19,954 nt of DNA from positions 25,983 through 45,936 of the forward strand of contig DCFC01000054.1 of NCBI GenBank assembly GCA_002314325.1. Reading direction: 5' to 3'. Positions 1-14,970 of this stretch are shown one piece after another; the stretch's first letter is position 1, and each line of letters begins with the position of its first letter. The stretch is from Megamonas hypermegale. Its GTDB lineage: Bacteria; Bacillota; Negativicutes; Selenomonadales; Selenomonadaceae. A program made the translations under genes and the position numbers. Below the pieces are notes generated by a model. That model worked only from the letters and a program-made list of their open reading frames with translations. It did no database searches and had not been told where the DNA came from.

Positions 1-44
1 AATATAAACTATTATACTACTTTAGGTAATCAACTAGCACAATA
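1..44 (-). repeat. Dispersed palindromic element, copy A (cut by window edge)
   Basis: This is the right-hand part of the palindromic element found complete at 5816-5941, 8510-8641 and 13671-13800. Positions 1-20 read AATATAAACTATTATACTAC and correspond to one inner stem arm. They are followed by an A/T linker with AATCAACTAG and the terminal GCACAATA at 37-44. Taking the copy at 5816-5941 as the + orientation, this copy is reversed, like the one at 13671. It shares the variant AAACTATTATAC with the 8510 copy, so these two may be closely related. The left half lies outside the window. It sits 88 bp upstream of the first CRISPR repeat. Confidence 0.7.
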
Positions 45-5323: not shown

Positions 5324-5384
5324 AACCCCTCCAATAGATTAATTTTTATTCATTGTTTAATTGTGTATATTAAACTTCCTAAGT

Positions 5385-5420
5385 ATTATAGGCAATCCCC
5401 GTTTATGAACGGACGGTTGA
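5385..5420 (-). promoter_or_regulatory. Candidate fumarase promoter with motif shared with sdhC
   Basis: On the minus strand a consensus TATAAT -10 (5390-5385) is preceded by GGGGATTGC (5399-5391) and, 12 bases further up, TCAACCGT (5420-5413). Between them lies the small palindrome CCGTTCATAAACGG. The hexamer at the -35 position (TCCGTT) is poor, so activation by a protein bound near -40 is plausible. The two blocks recur upstream of sdhC. The start codon is about 60 bp downstream. Confidence 0.5.
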
Positions 5421-5815
5421 GGACACAGTTTGTAAAAACTTTTTAGCAAATTTTGATATATTTATATTTGCTGAGAGATTGTCCAGTCTCAAAATTAAGC
5501 ACCGCAACTGAACAATATGCAAAATACCATTCAGTTTGCGGGACATTATCGTTACAATTTTGCGGAATAAAAAATATCCCTGTGTAAAGAAAATTTTAGC
5601 ATATTTTTAAGTGCGTTTCAACACTAAAAAAGCCGTAAAGCCTTAATATTATTAAAGTTGAAGCCTATTCACTTTTATGAATAAAATATATTTATAGAAG
5701 AAAACCATTCAATACTCCATTTATATTATCCGCTTAAACTATAAAGATGATAAATACAAATAGAATATTATTATGCAGATTTATGTTGTCTATAAACAAT
5801 TTTTATTTTATAAAT
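5421..5815. other. AT-rich intergenic stretch without a recognisable gene
   Basis: No reading frame with a ribosome site, no tRNA-like fold and no conserved motif was seen between the fumarase promoter and the palindromic element. The only local structure is an imperfect hairpin, GCAACTGAA (5504-5512) against TTCAGTTTGC (5530-5539), with one bulged base and a 17-nt loop. The end of this stretch (5803-5815) is one copy of the 13-bp direct repeat that flanks the palindromic element. Confidence 0.5.
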
Positions 5816-5941
5816 CCGTTGTGCCGATCAATTTTTTTAGCAGTATGATACTTTATATTTAGTGAGGTTAAGTGCCAACATCGAACGAATATAAAGTATC
5901 ATACTGCTGATATAATTTCGATGTCTTGCCAGCACAACAGA
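5816..5941 (+). repeat. Dispersed palindromic element, copy B, with 13-bp direct repeats
   Basis: This is the reference copy, 126 bp. Terminal inverted repeats are GTTGTGC (5818-5824) and GCACAAC (5932-5938). The inner stem is perfect over 21 bp: 5839-5859 against 5888-5908, left arm beginning AGCAGTATGATACTTTATAT. The 28-nt loop (5860-5887) contains ACATCGAA at 5878-5885, exactly complementary to TTCGATGT at 5917-5924 outside the stem. The element is bounded by direct repeats TTATTTTATAAAT at 5803-5815 and 5942-5954. The right one encodes the stop and last residues of the phosphoesterase gene. The inner stem lacks a T-run, so it is not an ordinary terminator. No protein is encoded. It looks like a MITE-type or structured repeat. 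Confidence 0.85.
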
Positions 5942-6418
5942 TTATTTTATAAATATGCGTTTAATGCGAATTTGTCCGTTTTCGATTGTTGCCGTCATAA
6001 ACGACGGGAAAAGACCGTCGCGCGGCTCGGATACGCTGCCGGGATTTACGAACAGTCTGTTGCCGATAGTTTTTTTCAGCCCGACATGACTGTGTCCGTA
6101 GATGATTAAATCGGCATTCACATCTTCCGCCTGCTCATTCAGATATTCAAGGCCCGTCTTGACATTATAGGCATGACCGTGCGTCATAAAAATACGGATG
6201 CCGCCGATATCTACCAGTATGCTGTCCGGTCCGTCCGCAGTCCAGTCGACATTTCCGGCAACAGCATATACTTTTTTCCCGGAAACTTTTTCCAAATACT
6301 GGGCATCCTCAATACTGTCGCCGGCATGAAACCAGACGTCGACATCGTCAGCCAGACAGACGGCATCGTCAATGGCGTCCAAATTGTAATGACTGTCGCT
6401 CATAATTCCCAGTTTCAT
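5942..6418 (-). CDS. YfcE/MJ0936-type metallophosphoesterase
   Basis: This 158-residue calcineurin-like phosphodiesterase of the YfcE/YsnB group probably uses two metal ions. Motifs in order are SDSH (D8, H10), HAGD (D34), GNVDW (N56), MTHGHAY (H80), GHSH (H109, H111) and NPGS (125-128), the full metal-binding set. The natural substrate is not known for the family. Activity on model phosphodiesters is typical. The ATG overlaps the rdgB stop (ATGA), as in the rph-ysnA-ysnB order of Bacillus subtilis. It is the last gene of the ireB-ruvX-rph-rdgB unit. Its final codons and stop lie inside the right copy of a 13-bp repeat produced beside the palindromic element, so its 3' end has been an insertion site without loss of the frame. 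Confidence 0.9.
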   Translation of the reverse strand: MKLGIMSDSHYNLDAIDDAVCLADDVDVWFHAGDSIEDAQYLEKVSGKKVYAVAGNVDWTADGPDSILVDIGGIRIFMTHGHAYNVKTGLEYLNEQAEDVNADLIIYGHSHVGLKKTIGNRLFVNPGSVSEPRDGLFPSFMTATIENGQIRIKRIFIK

Positions 6419-7011
6419 TTTAAATAGCCTCGCAGTAGATTTTCCATATTTCGCAGTGCTGCACCGCGGTGACTGACGGCATTTTTTTCCGCCAGTGTAA
6501 TTTGCGCCATTGTTTTGTCAAGCTGCGGCAGATAAAAATACGGGTCATAGCCGAAGCCGCCGTCGCCTTTGGCAAAGTTGCGGATTTGGCCGGTGCATCT
6601 GCCCTCGCATTCCAAAACAGAGCCGTCCGTATCGACGAACGCCAGAGCGCAGACGTAATGAGCTCTTGACGAGGTAACATCTTTTTTAGCGAGCTCATCC
6701 ACCATTTTGCGATTGTTGGCGGCATCGTCGGCATGGTAACCGGCAAAGCGGGCGGAATAAATACCCGGCGCGCCGTCCAGTACGTCGATTTCAAGGCCCG
6801 AGTCGTCGGCAAGGCAGGCACAGTTCGTTTCTTTAGCATAAAAAGAAGCTTTTTTCAACGCATTTTCCGCAAAAGTCGTGCCGTCTTCCACAGCATCCGG
6901 CAAAGCGCCGAATTCGCTCAACGAATGAAGTTCTACATCTAAATCTTTAAAGGCCGATATCATTTCTCTGACTTTGCCCTGATTTTTCGTTGCAACAATA
7001 ATTTTTTTCAT
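6415..7011 (-). CDS. rdgB: XTP/dITP pyrophosphatase (non-canonical purine NTPase)
   Basis: This is a HAM1/RdgB-family enzyme of 198 residues that hydrolyses XTP, ITP and dITP to monophosphates, keeping deaminated purines out of DNA and RNA. Visible motifs are the N-terminal ATKNQGK (7-13), TFAENALKKA (46-55), the catalytic ADDSGLEID (68-76) and, towards the C-terminus, GFGYDPYF and HRGAAL. The ATG at 7011 was chosen over the in-frame TTG at 7041 because family members begin at the MKKIIVATKN segment. The nearest ribosome-site-like sequence, AGGAAGG, lies a rather long 14 bases upstream inside the end of rph. It starts 5 bp after the rph stop and overlaps the phosphoesterase by 4 bp, so translation is likely coupled. 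Confidence 0.92.
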   Translation of the reverse strand: MKKIIVATKNQGKVREMISAFKDLDVELHSLSEFGALPDAVEDGTTFAENALKKASFYAKETNCACLADDSGLEIDVLDGAPGIYSARFAGYHADDAANNRKMVDELAKKDVTSSRAHYVCALAFVDTDGSVLECEGRCTGQIRNFAKGDGGFGYDPYFYLPQLDKTMAQITLAEKNAVSHRGAALRNMENLLRGYLK

Positions 7012-7016
7012 CAGTA

Positions 7017-7763
7017 TTAAGGAATCCTTCCTATCTTCCAAACTAAATCATTACCTAAAATATCCTTTTGATAAGAAATAAGCTCATCAATACCTTTTTC
7101 AGCAAAGGCAAGCATCTGAGAAAACTGCTTGTGCGTGAACGGATGTTTTTCGCCCGTTCCCTGAATTTCCACAAATTCGCCGCTGCCCGTCATTACAATA
7201 TTCATATCGGCAACGGCGGAGGAGTCCTCTTCGTAGCATAAATCCAGTATCGGTTCATTGTCTTTGGACAGACCGACGCTCACTGCTGCCAAAAAATCCT
7301 TGAGCGGAAACGGTTTTTTCGGGTCGTAAATCGTTTCAAGCGCCAAAGTAAGCGCGATAAATGCGCCGGTGATGGAAGCGGTGCGCGTACCGCCATCCGC
7401 CTGGATTACATCACAGTCAATCGTAACGGTCCGTTCGCCGAGCGCCTTGAAATCCATGACAGAGCGCAGACAGCGGCCGATAAGACGCTGGATTTCCTGT
7501 GTTCTGCCGTTCTGGCGGCCGCGGGCCGCTTCACGCGGTGAACGGGTAAGCGTGGCTGAAGGTAAAAGCGAATATTCAGCGTTAAGCCAGCCAATGCCGC
7601 TGCCGCGCAGAAACGGCGGTACTCCGTCTGTAAGCGTGGCGGCGCAGATTACTTTCGTATTGCCCGTTTCGATGAGCACGGAACCGGCAGGATACTTTTG
7701 AAAGTATTTTGTTATTTTAAAGCGACGCATCTGGTCGGCTTCGCGTCTGTCAATTCTGGTCAT
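7017..7763 (-). CDS. rph: Ribonuclease PH
   Basis: This phosphorolytic 3'-to-5' exoribonuclease trims tRNA precursors. It is 248 residues from the ATG at 7763. The family core is clear: GNTKVIC, VPPFLRG, the NGRTQEIQRLIGR segment and the phosphate/catalytic region CDVIQADGGTRTASITGA. The upstream in-frame TTG at 7799 would add 12 residues that have no family counterpart and would overlap ruvX. The chosen ATG has GGAGAG 11 bases upstream and a start matching the usual RRxDxRxxxxMR beginning. It lies 19 bp after ruvX and 5 bp before rdgB. The rph-rdgB-phosphoesterase order is conserved in Bacillota. Confidence 0.94.
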   Translation of the reverse strand: MTRIDRREADQMRRFKITKYFQKYPAGSVLIETGNTKVICAATLTDGVPPFLRGSGIGWLNAEYSLLPSATLTRSPREAARGRQNGRTQEIQRLIGRCLRSVMDFKALGERTVTIDCDVIQADGGTRTASITGAFIALTLALETIYDPKKPFPLKDFLAAVSVGLSKDNEPILDLCYEEDSSAVADMNIVMTGSGEFVEIQGTGEKHPFTHKQFSQMLAFAEKGIDELISYQKDILGNDLVWKIGRIP

Positions 7764-7782
7764 ATATCTAAAATCTCTCCAA

Positions 7783-8196
7783 TTATCGTAAACTGTCAAG
7801 ATATCCCTGCAAAATAAATACGGCTGCCATTTTGTCGATTACCTTCTTGCGTTTGGCGCGGCTGATATCCGCTTCCAGCAGGTAGCGGTCGGCGGCGACG
7901 GTGGACAGCCTTTCATCCCAGAAGATGATTTCGGCTTCAGGAATATCCTCTTTTAATTTAGCGGCGAACACTTTGACGATTTCGCAGCGTTCACCAACGG
8001 TGCCGTTCATATTTTTCGGCAGACCGACTACGAATTTAGTCGTTTCAAATTGACGGCTGAGTTCTTTTATGCGGCCTAAATCGTTTTTGTAGGATTTGCG
8101 GCGGATTGTCTCTACGCCTTGCGCCGTAAACAGAAGTTCGTCGCTTACGGCGACGCCTACAGTGCGGTCGCCCACGTCGAGGGACATTATGCGCAT
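7783..8196 (-). CDS. ruvX: Putative pre-16S rRNA nuclease / Holliday junction resolvase-like protein
   Basis: This 137-residue RNase H-like fold protein belongs to the YqgF/RuvX family. Members have been linked to maturation of the 16S rRNA 5' end and proposed as Holliday-junction resolvases. Catalytic acids by family comparison are D7 in [16 protein letters not shown]95 of WDERLST and D121 in VIDKMAAV. The glycine-proline segment [11 protein letters not shown] is at 56-66. The ATG lies 3 bp after the ireB stop. The ireB-ruvX pair beside alaS is a known Bacillota arrangement. Length is normal. Confidence 0.93.
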
Positions 8197-8199
8197 GGA

Positions 8200-8478
8200 T
8201 TATTCTGTTCCCTTCTTGATATTTTCATTATTTTCCAGATAGAAACGCACGAGTTCCTCCAAAAGTTCATCGCGTCCCAGCCGGCGGATTTCATTGCGGG
8301 CATTTCTGTTGCTGGTAATGTACGCCGGGTCATCGGACAGAAGATAGCCAACGAGCTGATTTATCGGACTGTAGCCCTTCTCGAGCATAGCACGGCAGGA
8401 AAGACAGAGTGCTTTTGCTGCTTTATCGTCATCTGCGCCAAAATTAAACATCATGGTTTCATCTTTAATATTGGACAT
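8200..8478 (-). CDS. ireB: IreB/ReoM-family regulatory phosphoprotein (UPF0297)
   Basis: This small protein of 92 residues has the family signature near the N-terminus (DETMMFNFG) and the central ALxEKGYxPINQLVGYLLSDDPAYIT-type stretch. In Enterococcus (IreB) and Listeria (ReoM), a threonine at the position of T8 is phosphorylated by the PASTA-domain Ser/Thr kinase, and the protein links cell-envelope signals to ClpCP degradation of MurA. Here only family membership is visible. The ATG at 8478 is used because AGAGGTGATT sits just upstream. The alternative GTG at 8487 lies inside that ribosome site. It is the first gene of the five-gene unit down to 5942, with palindromic element C in its apparent leader. 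Confidence 0.92.
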   Translation of the reverse strand: MSNIKDETMMFNFGADDDKAAKALCLSCRAMLEKGYSPINQLVGYLLSDDPAYITSNRNARNEIRRLGRDELLEELVRFYLENNENIKKGTE

Positions 8479-8509
8479 CGTAATCACCTCTGAAAAAATT
8501 TATTTCTAA

Positions 8510-8641
8510 TATAATTTATTCGTTGTGCTAGTTGATTTTTCAAAGCAGTATAATAATTTAAATGACAACATCGAACGCATATAAACTATTATACTGCCGG
8601 CTACAGGCACGATGTTTCACTAGCACAACGAATAAATTATA
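8510..8641 (+). repeat. Dispersed palindromic element, copy C
   Basis: This copy has the longest terminal inverted repeat: 8510-8532 and 8619-8641 are perfect 23-bp complements containing CGTTGTGCTAGT. The inner stem is 8545-8564 against 8578-8597 with two mismatches in 20, left arm beginning GCAGTATAATAATTT. The loop is short, 13 nt, lacking the TAGTGAGG half seen in copies B and D, but keeps AACATCG (8567-8573), complementary to CGATGTT at 8610-8616. Relative to copy B it carries compensated changes in the inner stem. It lies between ireB and its candidate promoter at 8689-8717, so it would be transcribed as part of the ireB leader. Confidence 0.85.
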
Positions 8642-8688
8642 AATTGGAGCAGTCAAACGTTATTAGAATACTTTAACTGCATGTCTTA

Positions 8689-8717
8689 ATTATAACAAAA
8701 GTTTCAGTGTAAAGACA
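8689..8717 (-). promoter_or_regulatory. Candidate promoter of the ireB-ruvX-rph-rdgB unit
   Basis: A perfect TATAAT -10 lies at 8694-8689 on the minus strand. The -35 is weak (GTCTTT or TGTCTT at 17-18 bp). It is the best promoter between alaS and ireB by eye. If used, the transcript starts near 8682 and carries about 200 nt of leader including palindromic element C. Confidence 0.4.
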
Positions 8718-8733
8718 GCTAAATATTACACTG
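8705..8733. promoter_or_regulatory. 8-bp inverted repeat overlapping the ireB promoter: possible operator
   Basis: CAGTGTAA (8705-8712) and TTACACTG (8726-8733) are perfect complements whose centres are 21 bp apart, two helical turns. The first arm overlaps the -35 region of the candidate ireB promoter. That geometry suits a dimeric repressor or activator, but no regulator is identifiable here. Confidence 0.3.
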
Positions 8734-8747
8734 CAACAACTCCGCCA

Positions 8748-8773
8748 AAATAAAAGGAGGCGCAAAGCCTCCT
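8748..8773 (-). terminator. Intrinsic terminator of alaS
   Basis: The minus strand forms AGGAGGC (8773-8767), a 5-nt loop and GCCTCCT (8761-8755), followed by TTTATTTT. It begins four bases after the alaS stop. Confidence 0.85.
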
Positions 8774-8776
8774 CTG

Positions 8777-11395
8777 TTATTTGATTTGGTTTTTGATGAT
8801 TTCGTGAGCTTTGTCGAATGCCTGCGGCAGATTTTCCGGCTGTTTGCCGCCTGCCTGAGCCATGTCCGGACGACCGCCGCCGTTACCTCCGGCAGCCTGC
8901 GCCACTTCTTTGACGATTTTGCCGGCGTGGATACCGCGCGATACGGCATCTTTGTTGGCTTTTACGACGAAGTTTACTTTGTCGCCGAGTACGGCGCCGA
9001 GTACGACAACGCCCGGTTTTTCAAATTTGTTGCAGATGAGGTCGGCACTGTTTCTAAGCTCATCCATATTTGAAGCCTGAATTTTGCCGACGATTACGTT
9101 TACGCCGTTGTATTCTTCCAGACCCATCAGGAGTTTCTGGGAGTCGGCTTTGGCGCGTTCAGCCTGAACTTTGGCAAGTTCCTGTTTCATTTCTTTATTT
9201 TCAGCGAGCAGACTGCTGATTTTATCCAAAACGTTGGCTTCCGTCGTTTTCAAGGCGGAAACTGTCTGCGCTAAAAGCTGCGCTTTTTCGTTCATGTAGC
9301 TGACAGCCGCTTTACCGGTGAGTGCTTCAATACGTCTTACACCGGCAGCAACGCCCGTTTCGCTGACGATTTTGAATACGCCGATTTGACCGACGTTCTT
9401 AACGTGGCTGCCGCCGCAGAGTTCCATGCTGAAGCCCGGAACGTTTACGACGCGGACGATATCGCCGTATTTTTCGCCGAACAGAGCCATAGCGCCTTTC
9501 GCTTTAGCTTCATCCTGCTTCATAAGCGAAATTTCCACATTCTGTCCCGTCATGATTTCCGCATTGACCATGTCTTCGACTTCCTTGAGCTGCTCAGCGG
9601 AAATCGGTTCAAAGCTGGAGAAGTCAAAACGCAGATGCTCAGCGTTGACGAAAGAACCAGCCTGATTAATATGGTCGCCGACAACACGTTTCAAAGCCGC
9701 CTGCAGCAGATGGGTAGCCGTATGGTTGCGCGCGGAAGCGAGTTTGTTTTCCATATCGACAGTGATTTCCACCGCATCGCTTGTGTGCAGACTGCCTTCC
9801 GTTACATGAACAATATTATACACGGTGCCGTCCGGCAGTTTTTTCGTGTCGATGACAACGGCGCTGCCCATAGCTGATTTTAATGCGCCGATATCGCCTT
9901 CCTGTCCGCCGCCTTCAGCGTAGAACGGCGTTACGTCCAAAATTACACCGGCTTCGTCGCCGTCTTCCAGACTATCGGTGATTTGAGCGTTTTTCCAGAT
10001 GCAGGCGATTTTTGCCTGACGGGCATTTTCGTCAATTTTCAGTTCGCCGATATTGCTGTCGCGCAAATCAGGAATATCCATGCGCTTGTTTTCACCGCGG
10101 GCGTTGCGGGCGCGGGTGCGCTGCTCGTCCATAGCTTTGTCGAACGCTTCTTTGTCGAGCGTCATATTGTTTTCATGCAGGATTTCATCGGTAAGTTCCC
10201 AAGGGAAACCGTACGTATCGTATAATTTAAAGCCGACTTCGCCGTCAAGAACGGTTTTATTTTCAGCTTTCAATTTAGCAATTTCTTCATTTAAAAGTTC
10301 CATACCCTGATTTAAAGTTGTAGCGAAACGTTCTTCTTCCAGAGTGATGACTTTTTTAATGTAGTCTTTGCGGTTCGTGAGTTCATCATAAACGCCGCTG
10401 TAAATTTCAGCAACAACATCTACGGCACCAGCAAGGAATTTCTTCTGAATACCAAGCATGCGCGCATGGCGAACGGCACGGCGCAACAGACGGCGCAGTA
10501 CGTAGCCGCGTCCTTCGTTGGAAGGCAGAATACCGTCCATAACCATGAAGGAAATGCTTCTTGCGTGGTCGGCGATAACTTTTAAGGAAATATCCGTTTC
10601 CTTATCCTTGCCATATTCAACACCGGCAACACTGCTTGCATATTCAATAATAGGGAACATTAAATCCGTTTCGAAGTTGGACGGTTTGTTCTGCATTACG
10701 GAAGCCAGTCGTTCCAGACCGCAGCCCGTATCGATGTTTTTATGCGTGAGCGGATTGTATTTGCCGTCTTCCGTGCGGTCAAACTGCGTGAATACGAGGT
10801 TCCAGATTTCGAGGAAACGGTCGCAGTCGCAGCCTACGCCGCAGGTCGGCGAGCCGCAGCCGCGTTCTTCACCGAGGTCAATGAAGATTTCCGAGTCAGG
10901 ACCGCACGGACCGCTGCCGATTTCCCAGAAATTATCTTCCAGTTTTACGATGTGGTCAGGATTGATATCTGTTTCAGTTGTCCAGATTTTATATGCTTCA
11001 TCATCATCAGGATAAATGGTCGCCCAGAGTTTATCTTTCGGCAGTTCCATTTCTTCTGTCAAAAACTGCCATGCCCAGCGGATGGCATCGTATTTGAAAT
11101 AATCGCCGAAGGAGAAATTGCCGAGCATTTCAAAATACGTATGATGACGGGCAGTGCGGCCGACATTTTCAATATCGCCCGTACGGACGCAGCGCTGGCT
11201 CGTCGTAATGCGTGTGCACGGCGGCTTCATTTTGCCGGTGAAATAAGCTTTAAACGGAGCCATGCCGGCGCCTATCATCAAAAGGCTCGGGTCATTGTCC
11301 GGAATTAAGGATGCGCTCGGAAGTTCTAAGTGTCCATTTTTCACGAAAAAGTCAAGATATTTTCTGCGGATTTCTTTACCGCTCATATACTTCAA
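8777..11395 (-). CDS. alaS: Alanyl-tRNA synthetase
   Basis: This class II synthetase of 872 residues charges tRNA-Ala and edits mischarged serine or glycine. In order it has the aminoacylation core with motif 1-3 regions (RCVRTGDIENVGRT near 68, GCGLERLA near 225), a cysteine-rich CGSPTCGVGCDCDR insert (about 180-193), the tRNA-recognition region, the editing domain with HTATH (558-562) and C660/H664 of CGGSH, and a C-terminal C-Ala domain with glycine-rich GGNGGGRPDMAQAGG. The start is TTG at 11395: GGAGG lies nine bases upstream, and the resulting MKYMSGKEIR aligns with the usual N-terminus. The ATG at 11386 is too far from the ribosome site and the TTG at 11404 touches it. Its own promoter (11497-11526) and terminator suggest single-gene transcription. 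Confidence 0.96.
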   Translation of the reverse strand: MKYMSGKEIRRKYLDFFVKNGHLELPSASLIPDNDPSLLMIGAGMAPFKAYFTGKMKPPCTRITTSQRCVRTGDIENVGRTARHHTYFEMLGNFSFGDYFKYDAIRWAWQFLTEEMELPKDKLWATIYPDDDEAYKIWTTETDINPDHIVKLEDNFWEIGSGPCGPDSEIFIDLGEERGCGSPTCGVGCDCDRFLEIWNLVFTQFDRTEDGKYNPLTHKNIDTGCGLERLASVMQNKPSNFETDLMFPIIEYASSVAGVEYGKDKETDISLKVIADHARSISFMVMDGILPSNEGRGYVLRRLLRRAVRHARMLGIQKKFLAGAVDVVAEIYSGVYDELTNRKDYIKKVITLEEERFATTLNQGMELLNEEIAKLKAENKTVLDGEVGFKLYDTYGFPWELTDEILHENNMTLDKEAFDKAMDEQRTRARNARGENKRMDIPDLRDSNIGELKIDENARQAKIACIWKNAQITDSLEDGDEAGVILDVTPFYAEGGGQEGDIGALKSAMGSAVVIDTKKLPDGTVYNIVHVTEGSLHTSDAVEITVDMENKLASARNHTATHLLQAALKRVVGDHINQAGSFVNAEHLRFDFSSFEPISAEQLKEVEDMVNAEIMTGQNVEISLMKQDEAKAKGAMALFGEKYGDIVRVVNVPGFSMELCGGSHVKNVGQIGVFKIVSETGVAAGVRRIEALTGKAAVSYMNEKAQLLAQTVSALKTTEANVLDKISSLLAENKEMKQELAKVQAERAKADSQKLLMGLEEYNGVNVIVGKIQASNMDELRNSADLICNKFEKPGVVVLGAVLGDKVNFVVKANKDAVSRGIHAGKIVKEVAQAAGGNGGGRPDMAQAGGKQPENLPQAFDKAHEIIKNQIK

Positions 11396-11430
11396 ACTAA
11401 TCAACCTCCAAATTTCTATGATTGCAATAC

Positions 11431-11472
11431 ATACATATTATTATCCAAGTGATACGGTGAGGAAATATGTAT
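11431..11472 (-). other. Possible stem in the alaS leader
   Basis: ATACATATT (11431-11439) and AATATGTAT (11464-11472) are perfect 9-bp complements around a 24-nt loop, inside the roughly 95-nt leader between the alaS promoter and its start. The leader is too short and lacks the features of a T-box, so no riboswitch is claimed. The stem is A/T-only apart from one C-G pair and may be weak. Confidence 0.3.
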
Positions 11473-11496
11473 ATAAAAATGAAAAAAACTTATCTA

Positions 11497-11526
11497 ATTA
11501 TAGCTTAACTGACAGGTCAAAGTCAA
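11497..11526 (-). promoter_or_regulatory. alaS promoter
   Basis: TTGACT (11526-11521) and TATAAT (11502-11497) on the minus strand are separated by 18 bp. The -35 begins only 24 bp after the recJ stop, giving alaS a start site independent of recJ, whose own end has no strong terminator. Confidence 0.65.
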
Positions 11527-11549
11527 TGAAATAAAGGCTGTATACAGGA

Positions 11550-13541
11550 TTAAAGCCGTTTTGACCCAAATCTTCGCGCAAAGGTCGGCGAAGTATTTAT
11601 ATCCATTTTAGTCTGCAAAGCAGTGTTTAAAATCGCAGTATTTTCATTAGGCAGGGATATGATATTTATTTCCTGCATGATTTTAAGACAGGTCTTTAAA
11701 GCATATTCCGATATATTTATATTGTAGAATTGTTTTAAGGCGCTATTTACGGCGGATACCGCTACAGCCCCATTAGCATTTTGCAGTGTCAGACGGCGCA
11801 TTGCCAAATAAACTTTGCCGACAGTATCGTAGGACGGATATTTTTCGAGAAATATCGGCGCATCGCCGCTTAGATTAATATCGATGAGCTTGAACTGAAT
11901 GTAGTCTTTATCGTTCCAGTGGTTGATTTCCGGCTGAAAAACGATATCGACATATTTGTAGGCAATCTGCTCGGCATACTGCGCCATGTTCCAGCCGATT
12001 GCCGTAAACCGCTGGCCGCTGTATTCAAAGACAAAGCGCAGATGCGTATTTTCGCGCCCGATTGTTTTGCACTGGCTTACGTAAAGGTGCTGGCAAACGA
12101 ATTGCGGTTTCGTGTTGCCCATGCCAAATGGTTCCAAAAGTGAAAGTTCATGGATTAAATCCAAAGTGATGTCCTGCGGATAGACGACAGCTTCTATTTT
12201 GCAGACCGGCGTTAAAATATCCTCCGGCACGTTTTTTTCAGCATAATCTTTGATATGCGCGGTGAAAGCGGCGATTTTTGCCGCTTCGATGGTAAAGCCC
12301 GCTGCCATGGAATGACCGCCGTAGACGACAAAATCGTTTGCGCAGAAATCGAGTGCGTTTTTCATATGAAAACCTTCGATACTGCGACACGAAGCCTTGC
12401 CGATACCGTCATTGACGGCGATAATGATGATGGGACGGTAATATTTTTCCTGCAGACGGGAAGCGGCGATGCCGATTACGCCTTCATGCCAGTTTTCACC
12501 GACGACGATGATGATTTTGTCCTGACCTGTTTGCGCTTTTTCCACCATAGCGACGGCCTGATTGAAGATATCCTCGACGATATCCTGCCGTTTTTTATTT
12601 TCCGCGTCGAGATAGCGGCTTTTTTCAGCGGCAACAGCTTTATCATCCGTCAGCAGAAGTTCGACAGCGTTGCTGGCGTGTGTAAGGCGACCGGCAGCGT
12701 TTAATCGCGGGGCTACGCCAAAGCCGATATGACCTGTATTCACCGTATCCGTTTCGTAGTTGCATATTTTTAAAAGCTCCTGCATGCCGAGATTGCGGAT
12801 ATTATTCAGACCTTTTTGGACGAAACGGCGGTTTTCATCAATCAAAGGCACAATATCGGCGACCGTTCCGAGTGCCACAATATCGAGATACTGCTCCAGC
12901 TCAGCAGGGTCTTTGTGCAAAGTCTGATACAATGCCTGACACAGTTTGAAAGCGACACCGACACCGCAGAGATTTTTGCACGGATACGGGCACTGCGCCT
13001 GATTGGGATTGACGATGGCGAGTGCTTCCGGCAGAGCTTCGCGCGGCAAGTGGTGGTCAGTGATGATGATGTCTATTTTATCCTTGGCGTAGGCGATTTC
13101 CTCAATGGCGGTGATACCGCAGTCGACCGTAACAATTAAATCGTAGCGCGGAATTAATTTATCAAGCGACGCCGTATGCAGCCCGTAGCCCTCGCTGTGG
13201 CGGTCGGGCAGATAATAATCGGCATTCATGCCGAGATTTTTCAGCACCGTAACGAGCAGCGCCGTCGAAGAAATGCCGTCGACATCGTAATCGCCGTATA
13301 TGCAGATTTTTTCCTGCGCCGCCAGTGCTTTTGCCAGACGGGCGCATGCTTTGTCCATATCTTTAAGCAGAAAAGGGTCATGATAAGCCGTCTGCGCCGG
13401 ATTTAAAAATTCTTTCGTTTCCTCCGGCGAAAAATTTTTTCGTGCTAAAATCTGCGCCAACAGCGGCGAAATGTGCAGCGCTTTCATTATTGCTTGCTGC
13501 TTTTTTTCATCAACAGGCAGAATTTCCCAGTATTTTTTCAT
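11550..13541 (-). CDS. recJ: Single-stranded-DNA-specific exonuclease RecJ
   Basis: This 663-residue 5'-to-3' single-strand DNA exonuclease of the DHH family acts in recombination and mismatch/base-excision repair. Metal-binding motifs are GDYDVDG (83-89; D84, D86, D88), VDCG (D140), TDHH (D162, H163, H164) and GTVADIVPL (225-233; D229). Further motifs are NAAGRL and the DHHA1 motif GGHSMAAGF. After the OB-fold region a tail of about 100 residues (from about 565) resembles the C-terminal extension of Bacillota RecJ proteins, making it longer than E. coli RecJ (577) but shorter than B. subtilis (786). The ATG follows GGAGG by seven bases. It is divergent from the glycosyltransferase gene, with palindromic element D between them. 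No convincing terminator follows it. Confidence 0.95.
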   Translation of the reverse strand: MKKYWEILPVDEKKQQAIMKALHISPLLAQILARKNFSPEETKEFLNPAQTAYHDPFLLKDMDKACARLAKALAAQEKICIYGDYDVDGISSTALLVTVLKNLGMNADYYLPDRHSEGYGLHTASLDKLIPRYDLIVTVDCGITAIEEIAYAKDKIDIIITDHHLPREALPEALAIVNPNQAQCPYPCKNLCGVGVAFKLCQALYQTLHKDPAELEQYLDIVALGTVADIVPLIDENRRFVQKGLNNIRNLGMQELLKICNYETDTVNTGHIGFGVAPRLNAAGRLTHASNAVELLLTDDKAVAAEKSRYLDAENKKRQDIVEDIFNQAVAMVEKAQTGQDKIIIVVGENWHEGVIGIAASRLQEKYYRPIIIIAVNDGIGKASCRSIEGFHMKNALDFCANDFVVYGGHSMAAGFTIEAAKIAAFTAHIKDYAEKNVPEDILTPVCKIEAVVYPQDITLDLIHELSLLEPFGMGNTKPQFVCQHLYVSQCKTIGRENTHLRFVFEYSGQRFTAIGWNMAQYAEQIAYKYVDIVFQPEINHWNDKDYIQFKLIDINLSGDAPIFLEKYPSYDTVGKVYLAMRRLTLQNANGAVAVSAVNSALKQFYNINISEYALKTCLKIMQEINIISLPNENTAILNTALQTKMDINTSPTFARRFGSKRL

Positions 13542-13623
13542 AAAAAGCCTCCAATAAGTAAATTTTTTACATAAGATTTATATTGTTTTCATAAAAGAAT
13601 GATATGATATACCGTACATTTGT

Positions 13624-13652
13624 TTTACAGTATAAATTGATTATGCTAAAAT
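13624..13652 (+). promoter_or_regulatory. Candidate extended -10 promoter of the glycosyltransferase gene
   Basis: TTTACA (13624-13629), 17 bp, then TGCTAAAAT with the -10 TAAAAT at 13647-13652. The TG at 13644-13645 makes an extended -10. Transcription would start near 13659 and run through palindromic element D before the gene, a leader of about 180 nt. A second, poorer option lies just upstream (TTGTTT near 13583). Confidence 0.5.
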
Positions 13653-13670
13653 GTAAAATAAATTAAGCAA

Positions 13671-13800
13671 TACTTATTGTGCTTGCAAAACAGCGAGCCT
13701 GTACAGCAGTATAATACTTTATATCCGCTCGATGTTGTCACTTAGCCTCACTAAATATAAAGTATTATACTGTTTTAAAAAATCAACTGCGCAATAAGTA
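13671..13800 (-). repeat. Dispersed palindromic element, copy D
   Basis: This copy is in reverse orientation relative to copy B. Terminal inverted repeats TACTTATTGTGC (13671-13682) and GCGCAATAAGTA (13789-13800) match in 11 of 12. The inner stem is perfect over 18 bp, 13707-13724 against 13755-13772 (CAGTATAATACTTTATAT). The 30-nt loop is nearly identical to that of copy B after reverse complementation, and its GCTCGATGTT (13727-13736) pairs with AACAGCGAGC (13689-13698) in 9 of 10 positions. GCAATAC occurs directly at 13667-13673 and 13802-13808, a possible target duplication. It lies in the leader of the downstream glycosyltransferase gene. Confidence 0.85.
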
Positions 13801-13842
13801 GGCAATACATACTGAATTTAAATGCCAAAGGAGACAATTATT

Positions 13843-14970
13843 ATGTCAGGAAAAAACATTCTTATTGTTACGGCTTCGATGGGGTCGGGACACAATAAAG
13901 CGGCTAATGCTGTTGCAGAGGCGATTAAAAGAAAATATCCTGCCAATAAAATAGATGTAGTCGATTTTATGTCGACGGAAACGGCATATTTCAACAGTCT
14001 GGTAAAAGATATTTATTTGAAAATGCTTGACCATACGCCGAGCGTCTATGAATTCTTCTATAAATTCACGGCGGACGCGGGCAAAGGAAGCATGCTGCAG
14101 ACGGTGTTTGCTCATGCCATGAAAAAGGACATGAAGGAATTAATCAATAAGTATGCAGCTGATATGCTCATCTGCACGCATCCTTTTCCTGTGGCAGCGG
14201 CTTCGTACCTAAAGCAGACTGGCGGAATAAATATCCCGATAATCACGGTCGTCACTGATTTCTGCTTTCACCAGTTCTGGTTTTATAAGAATATAGATAT
14301 CTATTTCGTAGCCAGTGAACAGCTGAAAAGCGATTTCGTGAAACAGGGACTGCCGGAGCAGAAAATTTTCGCTACGGGAATTCCTATCGGCTACAATTTC
14401 TCGCTGGAATACGACAAAAATGAACTGATGCATAAATTCAAACTGGACAAATCCAAACCGGTGGCACTGCTCATGGGCGGCGGTCTCGGTCTCGGCGGTG
14501 TGAAGGACGCCCTTCTTCAACTGGAGGAACTGAAAAACGAATTGCAGATTTTAGTCATAACGGGTGCAAATGTGTCGCTCTGGTCGGAACTCAATGAATA
14601 TGCGCAGCATTCCAAGCATAAAATTGCGGTCTGGGGCTATTCGCACAATGTACAGGAACTGATGGCTGTTTCCACCTTTTTAATCAGCAAGCCCGGCGCA
14701 TTGACGATAAGCGAGGCTCTAGCGATGGAACTGCCGATGATACTGCAAAATCCTATCCCCGGTCCGGAGGCGGACAATGCCAAGTTCGTATCGCAAAACG
14801 GTGCCGCCGTGTGGGTAAAACATCAAGACACACTCGGTGCGGCAATTCGGGAAATCCTGTCGGATACTACGATACTGCCGCGGCTCAGAAATAATGCGAA
14901 ACGATTGAAAAAAGTCAGCGCCGCCGATAATATCGCCGATATTACCGCCGACATGCTAGGACTGGACTAA
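13843..14970 (+). CDS. MGDG-synthase/UgtP-type lipid glycosyltransferase
   Basis: This 375-residue GT-B protein of the family that transfers glucose or galactose from a UDP-sugar to diacylglycerol shares its fold with MurG. The N-terminal acceptor domain starts with TASMGSGHNKAA (10-21), the family hallmark. The C-terminal sugar-nucleotide domain has GGGLGLGG (212-219), the SKPGALTISEA donor-binding segment (282-292) and PGPEADNA. No membrane helix is seen; such enzymes sit on the inner face of the membrane. The start is the ATG at 13843 because AAAGGAGA lies nine bases before it. The in-frame ATG at 13822 precedes that site. The product (mono- or diglycosyl-diacylglycerol) cannot be told. 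It is followed after 17 bp by the DivIC-like gene. Confidence 0.85.
   Translation: MSGKNILIVTASMGSGHNKAANAVAEAIKRKYPANKIDVVDFMSTETAYFNSLVKDIYLKMLDHTPSVYEFFYKFTADAGKGSMLQTVFAHAMKKDMKELINKYAADMLICTHPFPVAAASYLKQTGGINIPIITVVTDFCFHQFWFYKNIDIYFVASEQLKSDFVKQGLPEQKIFATGIPIGYNFSLEYDKNELMHKFKLDKSKPVALLMGGGLGLGGVKDALLQLEELKNELQILVITGANVSLWSELNEYAQHSKHKIAVWGYSHNVQELMAVSTFLISKPGALTISEALAMELPMILQNPIPGPEADNAKFVSQNGAAVWVKHQDTLGAAIREILSDTTILPRLRNNAKRLKKVSAADNIADITADMLGLD

Follow-up and report, generated by a model that had tools for sequence, protein, structure and literature searches.

What is the short palindromic sequence that recurs between the genes of this part of the Megamonas hypermegale genome, and how did it come to be there? 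We analyzed a stretch of 19,954 nucleotides (contig DCFC01000054.1, positions 25,983 to 45,936), referred to here as the window, in which a preliminary description, made from the sequence alone, had noticed three full copies and one cut copy of an intergenic palindromic repeat. We interpret the four copies (A to D) as a family of miniature non-autonomous mobile elements of about 125 bp, resembling miniature inverted-repeat transposable elements (MITEs), and give this interpretation a probability of roughly 0.75. The family is apparently undescribed; the kind to which it would belong, the miniature transposons, is already known. The copies and their parts, in window positions, are as follows.

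1..42, minus strand: copy A, cut by the window start, placed by alignment and by a covariance-model hit at 1-49 on the minus strand (38.2 bits, cut off); it holds the "left" end alone, from TTGTGCTAGTTGATT through the first inner arm
5816..5941, plus strand: copy B, a full element whose bounds are set by 13-bp direct repeats, placed by alignment, covariance model and repeat test
5840..5859, plus strand: first inner arm of copy B, pairing with 5888-5907 (20 of 20 pairs Watson-Crick)
5888..5907, plus strand: second inner arm of copy B
8510..8641, plus strand: copy C, a full element with an outer palindrome that continues into the flank and a 15-nt deletion in the loop
13671..13800, minus strand: copy D, a full element, placed by alignment and covariance model

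The three full copies and the cut copy lie at unrelated places in the window and occur in both orientations. Over aligned bases, flanks included, 86 of 119 are identical between B and C, 99 of 129 between B and D, and 95 of 115 between C and D, so that the full copies diverge from one another by 17-28%. With as many as 3 mismatches allowed, the window has 7 occurrences of the inner-arm motif, each inside one of the four copies, against an expected 0.12. A covariance model of the copies, as the preliminary description had proposed, was run on the window and recovered B, C, D and the cut A together with the opposite strand of the three full copies; no fifth copy was found in the window, nothing else scoring below E 0.3. 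Note that the model was built from these same copies, and the window scan therefore informs only on the absence of a fifth copy. The element measures from 106 bp, for the core of C from TTGTGC through GCACAA, up to 126 bp in B, and the full copies have a GC content of 0.34 compared with 0.45 in the window. Reading frames across the copies are short, with the exception of an 86-residue stop-to-stop frame that runs from B into the adjacent gene. A 46-residue frame across D had no relative in the protein database, and no further copies were found in that database when they were sought through spurious open reading frames (ORFs). Alignment, folds and the covariance model bear out that the sequences at the positions originally given are homologous, non-coding and strongly palindromic.

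The copies are also confined to intergenic DNA and, with B taken as 5816-5941, none overlaps a gene, as had been claimed. By our list of 18 genes, which comprises 18 ORFs with two starts moved inwards by eye and six proteins checked against Pfam, 2,412 of the 19,954 bases are intergenic. Because a copy is present in 4 of the 6 intergenic gaps that reach 100 nt, counting the first gap, which is cut by the window, very many copies in the genome are plausible.

In the orientation of B, the element begins with an outer arm, (A)YYYR-TTGTGC-(T)AGTTGATTTTT, which is followed by an inner arm GCAGTATRATACTTTATATT, a loop TAGTGAGGYTAAGTGMCAACATCGAACG and the second inner arm; its 3' part runs through a linker with CGATGTTTTGC and AGCACAA to a sequence complementary to the outer arm. 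This layout was drawn by eye from the alignment, and individual copies deviate from it. Accordingly, the sequence motifs first reported as common to the copies hold in part: GTTGATTTTT is exact in C and D, but B reads GATCAATTTTT and A reads GTTGATTACC; the inner arm CAGTATAATACTTTATAT is exact in D but only there; and the terminal TTGTGC/GCACAA is altered at one end of D, which is GCGCAA. Predicted folds were far more stable than those of shuffled sequences for 6 of 6 strands (z from -4.6 to -10.1; 0 of 200 shuffles each). The inner arm contains TATAAT, and promoter scans gave 11 against 4.6 in shuffles for the B region, and 1 against 1.9 and 4 against 2.0 for the other regions, with an excess over shuffles for the B region as a whole only.

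The marks that insertion may have left are two pairs of direct repeats.

5803..5815: TTATTTTATAAAT, left unit of the 13-bp repeat at B (putative target-site duplication)
5942..5954: TTATTTTATAAAT, right unit of the 13-bp repeat at B, formed by the final 13 bases of the phosphoesterase gene with the stop codon included
13667..13673: GCAATAC, left unit of the 7-bp repeat at D
13802..13808: GCAATAC, right unit of the 7-bp repeat at D

The 13-bp repeat is exact and touches both ends of B, and a match of at least 13 bp was seen in 0 of 20,000 pairs drawn at random from the window's intergenic 20-mers. The phosphoesterase gene lies on the minus strand, and its stop codon has 5942 as its last base. 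The motif R-[ILV]-F-x is present at the end of this gene in 20 of the 20 best homologues (44 homologues listed), 12 of which terminate at the same residue and 8 of which extend 3-7 residues further. Ten homologues aligned for the C-terminus all end at that residue (10 of 10), having been chosen by equal length, which favours equal ends. Since the right repeat copy encodes conserved residues, the left one, which is extragenic, is probably the duplicate. We regard the repeat at B as good evidence for insertion accompanied by duplication of the target, if not as strong as an empty site. The 7-bp repeat at D was matched by 739 of 20,000 random pairs and is suggestive only. At C, the longest direct repeat is 5 bp, and 7,222 of 20,000 random pairs do as well or better.

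The surroundings of C have a different character. Its outer palindrome is perfect over 23 bp (8510-8532 with 8619-8641), and the 13 bases adjoining TTGTGC/GCACAA pair without a break (0 of 50,000 random pairs), compared with 6 contiguous flank pairs at D (35 of 50,000 random pairs) and one pair followed by a mismatch at B. About 5 of the 13 flank pairs at C probably represent the element's own end, and the other 8 would lie beyond it. This palindrome may have arisen either by insertion of the element into a palindrome or by outgrowth, one arm being copied from the other.

Several of these observations weigh against a mobile element. The evidence comes from four copies, one of them cut, in one window of one strain, and C carries no direct repeat. 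The outer palindromes of C and D start with TA; a TA-type duplication is possible at C and D, and the 13-bp repeat of B would then need another cause. Repeats of 13 and 7 bp are, moreover, ill-suited to one ordinary transposase with a fixed stagger. Finally, a first version of the repeat test, in which the two members of a random pair were free to overlap, put the repeat at B at P 0.019; we regard it as superseded.

The copies could instead derive from a single larger repeat, or from a degenerate insertion sequence (IS), pieces of which were spread by recombination. The divergence among the full copies and the 15-nt deletion in C would agree with this, the family being old. However, the three full copies have the same two ends, similarity fades beyond them as judged by eye, and the direct repeat at B abuts both ends, so that we consider a larger repeat very improbable.

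As a mobile element, the sequence would be built from a short terminal inverted repeat (approximately AYYYR-TTGTGC-TAGT), a long inner hairpin with 20-bp arms, and a loop able to pair with the 3' linker. A transposase encoded elsewhere in the genome may recognise the ends and act in trans; a partner IS would then share the ends TTGTGCTAGT. Copies would have inserted into A+T-rich intergenic DNA with a target duplication of variable length, clear at B, weak at D and not seen at C, where the target site or the arms themselves may have been palindromic. The features of bacterial MITEs were taken from PMC2229807 and PMC10969869. The element is short (<500 bp) and non-coding, has terminal inverted repeats, and is A+T-rich and intergenic with a stable stem-loop, while a target-site duplication, a MITE feature expected at least of the younger copies, is clear on one copy of three (B).

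The maintenance of pairing among diverged copies bears on another explanation, namely that the element is a dispersed cis-acting RNA whose reverse-complement form folds within untranslated regions (UTRs) into an outer stem, a 20-bp hairpin and a pseudoknot, and thereby alters mRNA stability or translation. On the alignment of the three full copies we counted 40 pairs (12 outer, 20 inner and 8 between loop and linker), and 93.3% of the 119 pair cells were paired. The outer helix was 94.4% paired (12 pairs, three copies) and the loop-linker pseudoknot 87.5%, but the latter includes 3 unpaired cells of 24 (2 in C, 1 in D). Changes on both sides of a pair were found in 7 of the 40 pairs, a number reached by 2 of 500 shuffles, as would be expected of a selected RNA. 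One of the seven is in the pseudoknot (A-U in B, G-C in D) and one in the inner stem; the other five, however, are among the outermost pairs, at the end of the element or past it, where palindromic targets or arm-to-arm copying explain the pattern equally well. The inner-stem change had been pointed out before and is genuine: G5847-C5900 of B is A-T in C and D, the sole two-sided change among the 20 inner-stem pairs. In contrast, the supposed replacement of the loop-closing T-A by G-C in C proved to be no substitution, because the loss of 15 nt from the loop brings another G beside the stem.

The mismatches have a similar bearing on this RNA. Among 95 stem cells with letters (32 pairs, three copies), 89 are Watson-Crick, 4 are A-C, 1 is G-T and 1 is A-A. 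The four A-C cells become G-U on the strand opposite to that of B, and the single G-T goes the other way; the opposite, reverse-complement strand therefore retains more pairs. Of the two uncompensated mismatches that had been ascribed to C, both in the inner stem, the A-A stands, but the other, an A-C, is a G-U on that strand. The excess of four A-C over one G-T is nevertheless not significant (one-sided binomial, 6/32).

The positions of the copies relative to genes also enter here. Copy B lies between a metallophosphoesterase gene, whose stop codon it touches, and a fumarase gene. Copy C lies between alaS and ireB, 135 nt past the alaS stop codon and 31 nt upstream of the next start codon, and copy D between recJ and a gene for an MGDG-synthase-like protein, 42 nt upstream of the start codon at 13843. 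The names alaS and recJ are presumed from the sequence. Copy A ends about 90 nt before the first repeat of a small CRISPR array. At B and C the two flanking genes are both coded on the same strand as the reverse-complement form, and at D that form points towards the nearer of its neighbours. When C and D were folded together with the start regions, the element closed before the ribosome-binding site. Both the orientation and the distances of C and D from start codons would suit an RNA acting in 5' UTRs. Nonetheless, two copies are informative on orientation, the two ribosome-binding sites near C and D are partly in weak local hairpins of the minimum-energy folds, the neighbours (fumarase, IreB, MGDG synthase, CRISPR array) have no evident common function, and there is no Rfam match. 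The pairing pattern of the three full copies is thus weak evidence for a selected RNA, and we consider a cis-acting RNA unlikely as the explanation of the family. The two ideas might be joined, in that a mobile element with a pseudoknotted RNA, insertion into palindromes, variable duplication and one orientation before genes, perhaps including the CRISPR array, would serve as a mobile 5'-UTR regulator over much of the genome; this is a speculative picture that we hold to be quite improbable.

Some features of the neighbouring sequences were recorded in their own right. The CRISPR array at 132-426 has five identical 30-nt repeats (GATTAAAAGTATCATTAGATGAATTTGAAT) and four spacers of 36-37 nt. 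No cas gene was seen among the ORFs of the window, which were inspected without a profile search, and a 22-nt core from spacer 1 of the four was not matched exactly in IMG/VR. The best match of the phosphoesterase, at 99% identity, is a metallophosphoesterase named as from Megamonas hypermegale; a partial protein named as from Megamonas funiformis is 61% identical. The MGDG-synthase-like protein is 99% identical to one protein and 79% identical to proteins named as from Megamonas, among the best 120 of 1,167 matches. On these identities the window would probably belong to M. hypermegale or to a very near relative. From the fumarase start to copy B, about 480 nt (5324-5802) are free of genes, the longest such stretch in the window except for the first 500 bases.

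The same intergenic, hairpin-forming copies, placed near gene ends with B at a stop codon and C behind alaS, could also be read as structured DNA sites for host proteins, or as having a bidirectional terminator-like or REP/BIME-like function at gene borders. However, scans of the B and D regions gave no terminator-like site, and the two such sites near C correspond to a separate hairpin (8753-8775) behind alaS, which was detected on both strands and is distinct from copy C. REPs are palindromes of 20-40 bp (PMC3733652) with GTAG or CGTC at the end, and a RAYT gene often accompanies them. Our element exceeds that length about 3-6 times and has neither GTAG nor CGTC at the foot of its inner hairpin. 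A function of this kind would leave the insertion-like 13-bp repeat at B unexplained, and we regard it as highly unlikely.

We then compared the mobile-element interpretation with known families; YPAL, RUP and the Correia elements were compared by description. The element seems to work most like YPAL, ERIC or RUP. The YPAL (RU-2) elements of Yersinia are likewise small, intergenic and palindromic, and they have target duplications of variable length (3-26 bp) and targets that span or adjoin dyad symmetry, as may be the case at C (PMC2229807). They differ in being about 168 bp long and not A+T-rich, with internal inverted repeats instead of terminal ones and a contiguous ORF, so that length, terminal repeats, composition and the absence of an ORF separate our element from YPAL. 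ERIC (IRU, RU-1) is closer in size: it is 127 bp long and intergenic, with a long palindromic fold, terminal inverted repeats and target-site duplications, and it is reported to affect flanking transcripts in an orientation-dependent manner (PMC2229807, PMC10969869). In contrast to our element, it has TA ends and contiguous ORFs. E. coli reportedly carries about 30 ERICs (PMC10969869); a search of 20,395 E. coli records with copy D, the only copy used there, gave nothing at E<=1. RUP and BOX of Streptococcus pneumoniae are small scattered repeats of the MITE class, with tight folds and paired terminal inverted repeats (PMC3049150, PMC2229807), but RUP inserts at TA and has ends common to IS630-Spn1, whereas B has a 13-bp repeat, although TA duplications like those of RUP or ERIC are possible at C and D. 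The Correia (NEMIS) elements of Neisseria are also small, with terminal inverted repeats and a hairpin that is reported to be a target of RNase III in transcripts, but their terminal repeats are 24 bp long with TA ends (PMC2229807).

Database searches likewise gave no named family. No Rfam family matched the window at gathering score; the D region gave 8 matches far below it, 7 of them to microRNA or long non-coding RNA families. A pattern fitting 3 of the 3 full copies had 0 matches among the 84,980 species genomes of GTDB. A scan of the same set with six exact RecJ peptides of the window, which reaches close relatives only, matched 27 stretches, none of them in a relative. Because the window's own RecJ was unmatched, the host species is apparently outside this set, and the GTDB result therefore means that there is no close copy in the species covered and says nothing on Megamonas. 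In the viral contigs of IMG/VR, three element patterns had 0 matches. Looser patterns of the ends found 5 loci with both ends and 6 with the left end, of which 0 of 11 resemble the element internally (best model E 1.1). Viral contigs scanned for AlaS gave nothing.

When phages and plasmids were searched by distant blastn with the regions of B, C and D, the matches were weak and short, the best at E 0.03 among those listed. The numbers of records per search were 0, 11 (best E 0.07), 18 (E 0.03; best 15 of 18 considered), 39 (E 0.03; best 15 of 39), 3 (E 1) and 5 (E 5). The Clostridioides match at E 0.03, covering 24-26% of D and inspected in one phage, had no second arm by eye and was not matched by the model; we attribute it to chance. 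The model also found no match on the Selenomonas plasmid pSRC1 (285 kb), in a scan without a positive control. A literature search on MITEs or inverted repeats in Negativicutes, Phascolarctobacterium, Megamonas, Selenomonas and Veillonella, with subscription papers and IS/MITE databases outside its scope, gave no description of the family among the matches listed, and a search with two arm sequences gave one yeast paper and no description of the family. The IStrons described in PMC4227781 are unrelated. The view that these copies form a dispersed intergenic palindromic family without a named match is thus supported for Rfam at gathering score and, with no convincing match, for phages, plasmids and E. 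coli (copy D); the reading of a family as first proposed stands in this part.

No general picture is altered by this finding. In the literature searched we found no described MITE for the class Negativicutes. If the density of the window is typical, the element would represent a crowded family of small repeats in a gut Negativicute, with a copy number that may be high and with inserted hairpins that may influence neighbouring mRNAs. Such a family could then serve as a marker for strain typing, as a record of past transposition, and as a natural test of what inserted hairpins do to mRNA.

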